From: Natronobiforma cellulositropha
Lineage (GTDB): Archaea > Halobacteriota > Halobacteria > Halobacteriales > Natrialbaceae
Reading direction: 5' to 3'
Assembly: GCF_025629245.1 (NCBI RefSeq)
Contig: NZ_JANZXN010000024.1
Span: 614-34,922 of the forward strand
DNA length: 34,309 nt
Shown: positions 848 to 4,009 of the stretch, piece after piece
Layout: each line of letters begins with the position of its first letter
How positions within the stretch are numbered: the first letter of the stretch is position 1
Translations under genes and position numbers: made by a program
Notes under the pieces: generated by a model
Seen by the model: the letters and a program-made list of their open reading frames with translations, nothing else
Databases searched by the model: none
Told to the model about the DNA's origin: nothing

Positions 848-863
848 TTTAGACAACACTAAA
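848..863. promoter_or_regulatory. Palindromic operator-like site upstream of znuA
   Basis: A perfect inverted repeat, TTTAG-ACAACA-CTAAA, lies just upstream of the znuA TATA box (CTATATG, 884-890). TTAG...CTAA arms around a 6-base centre resemble operators of DtxR/MntR/SirR-type metalloregulators. Assignment to a metal regulator is inference from the neighbouring zinc importer. The related sites at 3784-3801 and 3807-3822 strengthen it. Confidence 0.6.
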
Positions 864-915
864 CATTTTTCTCGAATCGAAATCTATATGACTTCGCATG
901 CTCGAATCCAACTCG

Positions 916-1905
916 ATGACTGATAGTTCGACGCGGATTCGTTCGACGACAGATCGACTCACCCGTCGGCGAGCCCTCGCTGCAGGCGGGGTACTCGCGG
1001 CCTCGTTCGCGGGGTGTCTCGGAAGCGGGACGGACGACGACGGTTCCGGTAGCGGAGACGCCGATATTACCGTCTTCGCGACGATGCCCGCCGTCTGGGA
1101 CTTCGTCCGCCAGGTCGCCGGTGACCACATCGACGTGATCGACCTCGTGCCCGTCGGCGAACACGGCCACGACTGGGACCCCCAGCCCGGTATCGTCCGA
1201 GAGATCGAAGACGGCGACGGGTTCGTCTACCTGCGCGACTTCTCGAGTTGGCAAGACGACGCCGCCTCACAGCTCGAGACCGACGGCGAGGTGGTCGTGA
1301 TCGAGGCCTCTGCGGGCATCGAGTTCTTCGACAGCCCCGCCGAGGACAACGACGAACACTGGTGGATGGACCCCGTCGAGTGCCAGCACGGCGTCGACAA
1401 CATCGCCGACGGACTCGCGGAGATCGATCCGGACCACGCCGACGACTACGCCGCCAACGCCGACGCCTTCAACGAGGAACTCGAGTCGCTCCACACGGAG
1501 TTTCAGGACATCGTCGACCGGGCGACGCTCGACGAACTCGTCGTCGGAACCCACGACTCGTTCCAGTGGTGGCACCGACGCTACGGTATCGACATCCACT
1601 CGCCGGTGGGAACCTCGCCCGACGACCGTGCCTCGCCACAGGACGTCAGAGAGATCGAGACACTGATCGACGAGTTCGGCATCGAGCACGTCCTCTACGA
1701 CGTCGGTGAACCCGCTGTGCTCGCGCGCGACCTGGCCGACGAAACCGACGCGGAAATTCTCCCGCTCTCTCCGGTCGAAACCCAGATCGACGGCAGCCCG
1801 GAGATCGACTCGAGCGTGCAGATGGACGCCGACTGGGGCTACGTCGATCACTTCCGCGAGCTGAATTTCCCGTCGCTCGAGGTAGCGCTCCAGACCACAG
1901 ATTAG
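916..1905 (+). CDS. znuA: Zinc-type ABC transporter substrate-binding lipoprotein (ZnuA family, cluster A-I)
   Basis: Extracellular metal-capturing component of the ABC importer encoded with the next two genes. Residues 17-34 form a twin-arginine signal (TRRRALAAGG) ending in a lipobox with the lipidated cysteine at residue 34 (FAGC), so the protein should be Tat-exported and membrane-anchored. The ZnuA/TroA fold is supported by the ligand-type motifs GEHGHDWDP, DEHWWMDP and GTHDSFQWW, which place histidines where the family binds Zn or Mn. The acidic His-rich loop of many ZnuA proteins is absent. An ATG at 898 is in frame, but the TATA box at 884-890 is too close to it and sits 29 bases from the ATG at 916, so 916 fits a leaderless start (329 aa). 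Metal identity (Zn rather than Mn) is inferred from family resemblance. Confidence 0.88.
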   Translation: MTDSSTRIRSTTDRLTRRRALAAGGVLAASFAGCLGSGTDDDGSGSGDADITVFATMPAVWDFVRQVAGDHIDVIDLVPVGEHGHDWDPQPGIVREIEDGDGFVYLRDFSSWQDDAASQLETDGEVVVIEASAGIEFFDSPAEDNDEHWWMDPVECQHGVDNIADGLAEIDPDHADDYAANADAFNEELESLHTEFQDIVDRATLDELVVGTHDSFQWWHRRYGIDIHSPVGTSPDDRASPQDVREIETLIDEFGIEHVLYDVGEPAVLARDLADETDAEILPLSPVETQIDGSPEIDSSVQMDADWGYVDHFRELNFPSLEVALQTTD

Positions 1906-1967: not shown

Positions 1968-2720
1968 ATGACCAGCGCCATCTCCGTCGACGACGTCCAC
2001 TTCGCCTACGACGACGAGCCGGTCCTGCGCGGCGTCTCGCTCTCTGTCGAGCAGGGGGCGTTCCTCGGTGTTCTCGGCCCGAACGGCTCCGGGAAGACCA
2101 CGCTGGTGAGGATCATGCTCGGGCTCGAGCGGCCCGACGCCGGCCGCGTCGAACTGTTCGGCCAGCCTGCCGAGACGTTCACCGACGGCACCCGTCTCGG
2201 CTACGTCTCCCAGCACTCGACCGACGCCGACGCGACGATGCCCGTCACCGTCCGCGAGGTGGTGACGATGGGCCGCTACGCACACGCCGGTATCGACCGA
2301 CTGAACGACGCCGATCACGCGGCCGTCGACGACGCACTCGAGCGCGTCGACATCACCGACATCGCCGGCCGACGGCTCTCGACGCTCTCGGGTGGCCAGC
2401 GCCAGCGTGCGTACATCGCCCGCGCGCTCGCCTCCGAGGCGGACCTGCTCGCGCTCGACGAACCCACGGTCGGTATCGATGCCGACTCGCTCGCGCGCTT
2501 TTACGACCTCCTCGGCGAACTCAACGACGAGGGGATCACCATCGTCCTCGTCGAACACGACATCGGCGTCGTCACCGAACACGCGAGCACCATCGCCTGT
2601 CTCGACGGCGAACTGTACGCCCACTGTGAGACGAGCGCGTTCCTCGAGAGCGACGCCTTAGAGCGTGCGTTCAGTTCGGTTCGCGTCGCGAACGCACACC
2701 GGCCCGTCGGGGGCGACTGA
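1968..2720 (+). CDS. znuC: Zinc-type ABC transporter ATP-binding protein
   Basis: Cytoplasmic ATPase that powers the metal importer. The 250-aa length is normal for ZnuC/MntB-like subunits. A Walker A motif (GPNGSGKTT) lies near residues 37-45, the ABC signature (LSGGQRQR) near 139-146, and a Walker B (LLALDEP) near 162-168 is followed by the switch histidine in VEHD. The gene follows znuA by 62 bases and precedes the permease by 3 bases, so the three form one operon in the order binding protein, ATPase, permease. No strong TATA element is seen in the 62-base gap, which suggests expression from the znuA promoter. Confidence 0.93.
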   Translation: MTSAISVDDVHFAYDDEPVLRGVSLSVEQGAFLGVLGPNGSGKTTLVRIMLGLERPDAGRVELFGQPAETFTDGTRLGYVSQHSTDADATMPVTVREVVTMGRYAHAGIDRLNDADHAAVDDALERVDITDIAGRRLSTLSGGQRQRAYIARALASEADLLALDEPTVGIDADSLARFYDLLGELNDEGITIVLVEHDIGVVTEHASTIACLDGELYAHCETSAFLESDALERAFSSVRVANAHRPVGGD

Positions 2721-2723
2721 ACC

Positions 2724-3770
2724 GTGTCGCTCGACCGCTCCAGTCTCCTCCGCTCCGTGCGCGAGGAGTTTCTCGTCCTCGGTATCCTCGCCGCGGTCGC
2801 GCTCCTCTCTGCGGGGTTCATCGTGGCCGTCTTCCCCACCCTCTACAGCCTGTTCTGGAGTAGCACGTGTCACTCGTTCGAGGTCGGTCTGGGTGCCTTC
2901 TCGACGACCTGGGTAGGCCAGCAACTGAGCACGTGGCTCGGTCTCTCGTTCGATCCGTGGCTCGTCTGTAGCGGCTTCCTCCAGCGCGGGTTCACCGCGG
3001 GAATCCTCATCGCGATCACCGCGCCGGTCGTCGGCGCCTACCTCGTCAACCGCCAGATGGCGCTCATCGGTGAGGCACTCGCGCACACGGCGTTCGGTGG
3101 GGTCGCCATCGGCCTGTTCGTCGGGGCCGCCGTCCCGAGTCTCAACTACCCCCTCGGCTTCGCGCTCGTCGTCGCGGCCATCGCCGCCCTCGGCATGCAG
3201 TACGTGGCGGTGAAGACCGACGGCTACGCGGACGTCCCCATCGCGATCATGCTCACCGGCGGCTTCGCCGTCGGCGTCGCCATCATCTCCTACGGCGTCA
3301 CCTTCAGTGCGACCGTCGAGAGCTACCTCTTCGGCGACATCCTGTTCGTTCCCTTCGAGAACGTCCAACTGATGGTCGCGCTCACTCTCATCGTCGCGGC
3401 CACCATCGCCCTGACGCACAAGCAACTGCTGTTTATCACGTTCGACCGCGAAGCCGCCCGCCTCGCGCGCATCAACGTCTGGTTCTACGACACGCTGCTC
3501 ATCGTCCTCACCGCACTCGTCGTCGTCGCCGCGATGCAGATTCTCGGTGCCATCCTCGTCGCGGGCATGCTCGTCATCCCGGTCGCCGCCGCAATGGTCC
3601 TCACCAGCAGTTTCACTCGAGGGCTCGTCCTCTCGGTTCTCTTCGGCCAACTCGCCATCGTCGGCGGCATCCTCTCGTCTGCGCACTGGAACGTCGCCAC
3701 GGGCGCGATGATCATCATCGCCGCCATCTGCCTCTACCTCGGTGCGCTCGCCGTCACCAGCCTGCGGTGA
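2724..3770 (+). CDS. znuB: Zinc-type ABC transporter permease (ABC-3 family)
   Basis: Membrane channel of the metal importer. A GTG start at 2724 lies 3 bases after the znuC stop, consistent with translational coupling, and gives 348 aa. That is longer than the usual 270-290 aa of the family because of an N-terminal extension of about 90 residues. The extension contains one hydrophobic segment (about residues 17-42) and two cysteines before the ABC-3 core. The core begins near residue 90 (QRGFTAGILIAITAPVVGAYLV) and has about eight hydrophobic segments and the conserved ALxGEALAHTAFGGV-type element. The extension appears to be an additional transmembrane helix plus an extracellular loop; its role is unknown. 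Confidence 0.92.
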   Translation: MSLDRSSLLRSVREEFLVLGILAAVALLSAGFIVAVFPTLYSLFWSSTCHSFEVGLGAFSTTWVGQQLSTWLGLSFDPWLVCSGFLQRGFTAGILIAITAPVVGAYLVNRQMALIGEALAHTAFGGVAIGLFVGAAVPSLNYPLGFALVVAAIAALGMQYVAVKTDGYADVPIAIMLTGGFAVGVAIISYGVTFSATVESYLFGDILFVPFENVQLMVALTLIVAATIALTHKQLLFITFDREAARLARINVWFYDTLLIVLTALVVVAAMQILGAILVAGMLVIPVAAAMVLTSSFTRGLVLSVLFGQLAIVGGILSSAHWNVATGAMIIIAAICLYLGALAVTSLR

Positions 3771-3783
3771 GGTCCCCCGAACG

Positions 3784-3822
3784 AATTAGACTGAGCTAAT
3801 TATATATTTAGACATAGTAAAA
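3784..3822. promoter_or_regulatory. Two operator-like palindromes flanking an orphan TATA box
   Basis: AATTAG-ACTGAG-CTAATT at 3784-3801 is a perfect palindrome with 6-bp arms and a 6-base centre. It is followed by TATATATTT (3801-3809) and by TTTAGACATAGTAAA (3807-3821), which shares its first eight bases (TTTAGACA) with the znuA site at 848. The arrangement is that of a regulated promoter pointing rightwards. It lies 14 bases after the znuB stop, so it cannot serve the znu genes; its product must lie between 3830 and about 4030. Binding by a metal-dependent repressor is inference. Confidence 0.6.
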
Positions 3823-3829
3823 CTTATCC

Positions 3830-3940
3830 GGATACGCCTCCTGCCCACTAGTGCGGTTCGGGCGACGCCAGTGTCCGACCCGCGAGCCAGGTGAGCTCCG
3901 CTGTCACTGGCAGTTCGTGATCAGGGACGCCCCTGACATT
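3830..3940 (+). ncRNA. Candidate metal-regulated small RNA (alternative to the small ORF at 3851)
   Basis: The expected transcription start from the promoter at 3801-3809 is near 3830. The downstream sequence contains a stem with 7-bp perfect arms (GCCAGTG 3867-3873 with CACTGGC 3905-3911). A tight perfect hairpin follows at 3921-3936 (TCAGGG-ACGC-CCCTGA). These could be the body and 3' end of a small RNA. No poly-T run closes it, so the end is a guess. A short coding frame starting at GTG 3851 overlaps it and is the alternative reading. Confidence 0.3.
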
Positions 3941-4009
3941 TCTCCACGGAACCCGCCGCCCTCGTCACGAGTGCACGGCTCTCGGCTCGAGAGACTGCTG
4001 CAAAAATAG
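3851..4009 (+). CDS. Possible 52-aa protein with Cys-Cys-His motif behind the orphan promoter
   Basis: A GTG-initiated frame starts about 20 bases after the predicted transcription start. It encodes a basic 52-residue peptide with C8, C18 and H19 (QCPTRE...RCHWQF) and ends at TAG 4007-4009, just before the convergent ferredoxin gene. The first 30 codons have moderately high GC in third positions; the rest does not look strongly coding. If real, a two-Cys/one-His peptide under a metal-type operator could bind metal. I do not recognise a family. It may instead be non-coding (see the overlapping RNA candidate). Confidence 0.25.
   Translation: MRFGRRQCPTREPGELRCHWQFVIRDAPDISPRNPPPSSRVHGSRLERLLQK

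Follow-up and report, generated by a model that had tools for sequence, protein, structure and literature searches.

A candidate metal-regulated small RNA family of haloarchaea, encoded beside znuACB-type importers and predicted to pair across the start codon of the Mn-superoxide dismutase gene

What is encoded in the short intergenic region behind the znuB gene? The window, i.e., the whole stretch of 34,309 nucleotides analysed here, is haloarchaeal (source genome G000, 3.76 Mb), and the named relatives of its znuB belong to Natrialbaceae-type genera. A convergent ferredoxin gene lies 260 bases after znuB, and the initial annotation had placed in this gap a regulated promoter driving either an unannotated small RNA or a 52-aa Cys/His peptide. 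The comparative evidence supports the first of these products: both the promoter and the gene of a candidate small RNA (sRNA) fall inside the gap, with an operator common to the importer and to a DtxR/MntR-type regulator. The features of the importer operon and of the promoter are as follows.

849..862, + strand: DtxR/MntR-type operator TTAGACAACACTAA before znuA, one of the two TTAGN6CTAA matches in the window
898..1905, + strand: znuA-type substrate-binding lipoprotein of a metal ABC importer (Pfam ZnuA, E = 4e-52)
1968..2720, + strand: znuC-type ATPase (Pfam ABC_tran)
2724..3770, + strand: znuB-type permease (Pfam ABC-3, E = 2e-56)
3786..3799, + strand: operator TTAGACTGAGCTAA of the sRNA promoter, a TTAGN6CTAA box at a fixed distance from the RNA in relatives
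3807..3822, + strand: second, weaker operator-like box TTTAGACATAGTAAAA, touching the TATA element, with similar half-boxes there in several copies
3819..3827, + strand: TATA-like element AAAACTTAT, aligned with TTTTAATA, TTTAAGTA, and ATATAA of other copies

No NCBIfam model scored above its cut-off for the importer, and the name znu denotes homology, so the name does not settle the metal that is carried. Relatives of the importer were also sought in viral contigs, and none were found. Upstream of znuA, positions 572–730 encode a 53-aa zinc-ribbon-like protein with CPHC and CGC motifs.

Two near-palindromes with an AT-rich stretch between them are present behind znuB, as first described: the 16-nt ATTAGACTGAGCTAAT (3785–3800), in which the operator sits, and TTTAGACATAGTAAAA. 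The intervening TATATATTT had been taken for the TATA box and transcription for starting near position 3830; the alignment of homologous copies instead places the TATA-like element downstream of both boxes, at AAAACTTAT, and shifts both this element and the expected start by approximately 20 nt downstream. With AAAACTTAT at 3819–3827, transcription would therefore be expected to start at about 3847–3852. Every sRNA copy has a TATA-like element, at about −20 to −28. The motif TTAGNNNNNNCTAA occurred exactly twice in the 34 kb (0.01 occurrences expected), before znuA and behind znuB. In 21 of the 29 sRNA copies described below, a TTAGN6CTAA box started 58–61 nt upstream of the start of the RNA model, and the number with an operator reached 23 when two displaced boxes were included; the chance of an operator at that position is approximately 0.0006 per copy. 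Scans for bacterial promoters and terminators returned nothing, which is expected because the host is an archaeon.

In the relatives, the region downstream of znuB contained the same operator followed by a conserved element in which CCAGGTGARYTCC and CGTGRTCAG recur, two motifs that were recognised before model building began. Covariance models (R1, R2, and R3) were constructed from the elements of these relatives, with the window sequence included, and were used to search 125 genomes of the same family, the whole order, and two further families family-wide; true and false copies were sorted by the presence of the operator and the core. These searches yielded 29 copies in 28 genomes, of which 24 were among the 125 same-family genomes and four in two other families; the surplus copy is in G133, where two copies lie in tandem (L165, 7850–7951 and 8126–8250), the second of them without a strict operator and with most of helix 4 missing. 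Since the window sequence was among the model inputs, its own model scores are not independent, and its family membership rests on the core, loop, operator, and position, all of which were seen before model building. Matches in G115, G122, and G002, and most of the weak matches in families f4 and f5, were rejected; they had neither operator nor core and often lay within coding sequences. The element had no match in Rfam, and no second sRNA copy was found near the DtxR gene on contig C26 of the window's genome. A literature search with partial coverage returned no description of this RNA or of an archaeal sRNA against sod, and the family appears to be undescribed so far. The RNA is estimated to be approximately 90–130 nt long, with the following parts in the window.

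3847..3937, + strand: small RNA gene (the conserved element; the transcript may extend 3'), identified by covariance-model matches and shared motifs
3852..3884, + strand: 5' hairpin in the window fold, the counterpart of helices 1 and 2, of which helix 1 covaries in relatives
3887..3899, + strand: conserved core CCAGGTGAGCTCC (helix 3 and its loop), nearly invariant across copies
3914..3924, + strand: TTCGTGATCAG, the counterpart of the 3' hairpin loop TTCGTGGTCAGTC, whose complement lies at the sod start in relatives

The secondary structure is conserved and is backed by covariation. Among 28 aligned copies, 21 of 27 base pairs showed two-sided changes, and 90.6% of the cells could pair, compared with 39–56% when the partners were slid; all measures exceeded those of 500 of 500 shuffles. 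Because this alignment had been fitted to the structure, helix 1 was retested on a plain, structure-blind MAFFT alignment, in which 95.1% of the cells were paired versus 32–44% after sliding. Helix 3 encloses the core, and helix 4 encloses the large loop UUCGUGGUCAGUC. The two stems initially noted at 3867–3911 and 3921–3936 are present in the fold of 3847–3945, which forms hairpins at about 3852–3884 and 3917–3939, the latter containing 3921–3936. The relatives that keep the palindromes also keep the covarying stems, a result that favours an RNA as the product. Judged by comparison across genomes, the candidate RNA and its operator are well supported.

The neighbourhood of the RNA points to control by metal. 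In each of the 24 same-family genomes, a znuACB-type operon lies at most 5 kb from the RNA, and the gene order takes seven different forms. These include an RNA that immediately follows znuB, one divergent from znuA, one that is either divergent from a dtxR-znu operon or upstream of it, one that comes after the gene of a large membrane protein 3' of znuB, and one that comes after znuABC-dtxR. At four loci (L175, L176, L181, and L184), the gene of a membrane protein of approximately 680 aa, equipped with a box of its own, separates znuB from the sRNA. In three same-family genomes, the importer beside the RNA is a paralogue of only 33–47% identity, and the same holds for G096. Two genomes of another family carry the RNA in divergent orientation to a DtxR gene, far from any znu importer, and the copies in G288 and G253 have no evident metal gene alongside.

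The boxes before the sRNA (23), znuA (24), and dtxR (13) share a single consensus, TTAGACTAGTCTAA, so that the same palindromic operator precedes the importer, the RNA, and, at loci where it is a neighbour, the regulator gene. Nearly all other boxes at the sRNA loci belong to a second class, TTAGGC..CCTAA. In the window's genome, TTAGGC..GCCTAA boxes occur at L196–L199 and L201, some of them in front of ABC importers that may be iron importers. On contig C26 of the same genome, the box TTAGATGGGGCTAA (L200, 8074–8100) precedes a 329-aa membrane protein near an MntR-like gene, and this protein is a possible further member of the regulon. The neighbouring regulators are DtxR-family proteins that contain Fe_dep_repress, Fe_dep_repr_C, and FeoA domains; among the NCBIfam models they matched MntR best, with scores below the cut-off. 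Linkage and the shared box tie the RNA to a putative importer of manganese or of another metal.

The candidate target emerged from the loop of helix 4. When the antisense of this loop (an 11-mer) was searched in 14 genomes, it met the start of the superoxide dismutase (SOD) gene, ATG ACT GAC CAC GAA, in 12 of them. The encoded SOD matches the haloarchaeal Mn type (NF041312) above the cut-off. In 11 genomes, the sRNA is complementary to the translation start of its own Mn-SOD gene over an unbroken 11–14 nt, within coding positions +1 to +16; in G016 and G083, a two-base shift still leaves a complement of 13 nt. Among 606 real start windows, sod ranked first for two of the RNAs (G133 and G085) and shared first place for a third (G013), and dinucleotide-shuffled RNAs attained the observed pairing length in ≤0.1% of trials. 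A related sod gene on a Natrinema plasmid also keeps CTGACCACGAAC. The match was absent from the loops of G093, G096, G020, and G014 and of the copies in other families; in G136 the loop is present, and the 11-mer had no match at sod. Variant loops also occur in G126, G127, G129, G021, G132, G135, and G139. Because the orthologues share ancestry, the sod match counts only once, as a coincidence or as a function, and not as 11 separate events, and it could partly reflect the conservation of N-terminal codons. We regard the sRNA–sod pairing as a strong prediction from the sequences. In several sod leaders (L378, L385, and L376), ACAGGTGAATTCC, which is nearly identical to the sRNA core CCAGGTGARYTCC, stands just before the ATG on the same strand, in an apparent mimicry of the ribosome-binding site.

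For the window itself, the loop UUCGUGAUCAG is predicted to pair with the start of its own sod gene, for which the sequence CTGATCACGAA would be expected. The sod gene of this genome was searched for by synteny in approximately 400 kb of its contigs and was not found, and GACTGACCACG had no match in the contigs examined.

These observations are best accommodated by a trans-acting, metal-sparing sRNA that is induced by metal starvation and blocks sod translation to spare manganese, a reading to which we assign a probability of roughly 0.68. With an ample supply of manganese (or a related divalent metal), a MntR/SirR-type repressor of the DtxR family would bind the TTAG-N6-CTAA boxes and shut off its own gene, the znuACB importer, and the sRNA together. 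When the metal is short, the boxes would be freed, the importer would be made, and the separate promoter behind znuB would yield the RNA of approximately 90–130 nt. The loop of its 3' hairpin, UUCGUGRUCAGUC, would then pair with the first 11–14 nt of the Mn-SOD coding region, over the start codon, and the resulting block of SOD translation would keep scarce manganese from being tied up in SOD. The RNA thus appears to be made when metal runs low; we infer its transcription, the metal sensed, repressor binding, and pairing in the cell from the comparative data. The wider proposition, in which this is an undescribed archaeal sRNA family that spares manganese through the Mn-SOD start, independently of RsaC and RyhB, with the core acting on further targets, is one that we narrowly favour.

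Conservation is stronger in the core CCAGGTGAGYTCC than in the loop, and the sod pairing leaves the conservation of the core unaccounted for. The RNA might therefore be metal-regulated and have other main targets (mRNAs or a protein), with the core as its working part and the sod match incidental or minor, a reading that we consider unlikely, albeit deserving of serious weight. It agrees with the persistence of the core in copies in which the loop has been lost (G096, G020, and families f4 and f5). Furthermore, when the core antisense was searched in 24 genomes, it met the start of a gene for a UPF0173-type metal-dependent hydrolase (ATG GAR CTC ACC TGG) in 12 of them (L205, L207, L225, L226, L238, and others); the orthologues were located with a partly hand-written query protein, used for finding positions only. 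However, this hydrolase was rejected as the core target. The same start is present in many genomes without the RNA, and co-variation was not clear, as a genome's own core–hydrolase pairs (11.78) hardly exceeded swapped ones (11.63; p = 0.07). For these two reasons, the match was not counted as evidence, and it is probably attributable to protein conservation. The sod match, moreover, is longer and concerns the target expected from RsaC and RyhB.

The element in this particular genome might instead be a silent remnant with an operator, i.e., a decoy site or relic promoter that no longer yields a functional RNA. Few copies have diverged as much as that in the window, which has a single merged 5' hairpin, no clean helix 4, and a competing 3' hairpin (3921–3936) that overlaps the loop, and its fold is only mildly better than those of shuffled sequences (z = −1.74), so the structural case rests on the relatives. 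We nevertheless regard decay as improbable, considering that the core, loop, operator, and spacing are intact and that five other genomes, all distant relatives, have exactly the same core CCAGGTGAGCTCC.

It is more improbable still that the element acts in cis within the znu transcript, as a 3' UTR structure or a product of processing, and is not a gene in its own right. Although it often directly follows znuB, and S. aureus RsaC does come from an mntABC-rsaC operon, the element has its own TATA element and operator at a fixed distance and in other genomes lies kilobases away or in divergent orientation to znuA or dtxR. The 52-aa metal-binding peptide deserves next to no credence: the open GTG frame (3851–4009) with C8, C18, and H19 does exist in the window, but there was no similar or conserved frame in the other copies (best match E = 0.055, over a different protein), Pfam and NCBIfam searches gave no match, and the indels of the family are not in threes and its changes follow base pairs.

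The trans-acting, metal-sparing sRNA can be compared with several known systems. RyhB of Enterobacteria is an Hfq-dependent, Fur-controlled sRNA of metal starvation that lowers a metal-dependent SOD. Unlike RyhB, which belongs to iron and Fur, the haloarchaeal RNA has a DtxR-type box, and the two are not homologous. In S. aureus, RsaC follows the mntABC importer, is freed by the loss of MntR repression, and lowers SodA in a manganese-sparing response; RyhB is mentioned beside it (PMC12421985). Like RsaC, the haloarchaeal RNA lies behind an ABC metal importer, has a box of the DtxR family, and has a Mn-SOD as its (predicted) target. It differs in that RsaC is bacterial and part of the importer transcript, whereas the RNA described here has a separate promoter, its own operator, and an archaeal host, in which its predicted pairing spans the sod start. 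The likeness is one of function and arrangement, not of ancestry, and we do not claim membership of the RsaC family; the haloarchaeal RNA is best read as a putative convergent counterpart of staphylococcal RsaC.

Among archaea, SirR of Halobacterium is described as a Mn(II)-dependent autorepressor of the same DtxR family, acting on the Zn/Mn ABC importer zurA-zurM-ycdH; its deletion raises zurM, zurA, and ycdH, and a small RNA is not part of the description of that system (PMC3600143). The closest haloarchaeal precedent is sRNA132 of Haloferax volcanii, an intergenic sRNA of phosphate starvation that is linked to ABC importers and has a positive effect on the importer (PMC6560208). It resembles the present RNA as an intergenic sRNA of nutrient starvation with a link to an ABC importer, but differs in its response to phosphate, its positive importer effect, and its lack of a metal operator.

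To our knowledge, it is uncommon for an archaeal sRNA to have a known signal together with a plausible target. The present one is directly testable because it combines a readable operator, a structure backed by covariation, a consistent neighbourhood, and a sharp target prediction. Haloarchaea are known for their manganese-based resistance to oxidative stress, and, if the proposed circuit is true, they trade SOD against manganese supply via an RNA. The repression of SOD by a metal-sparing sRNA would then have arisen separately in archaea, Firmicutes, and Proteobacteria, and archaea may have a metal-sparing RNA switch of their own.
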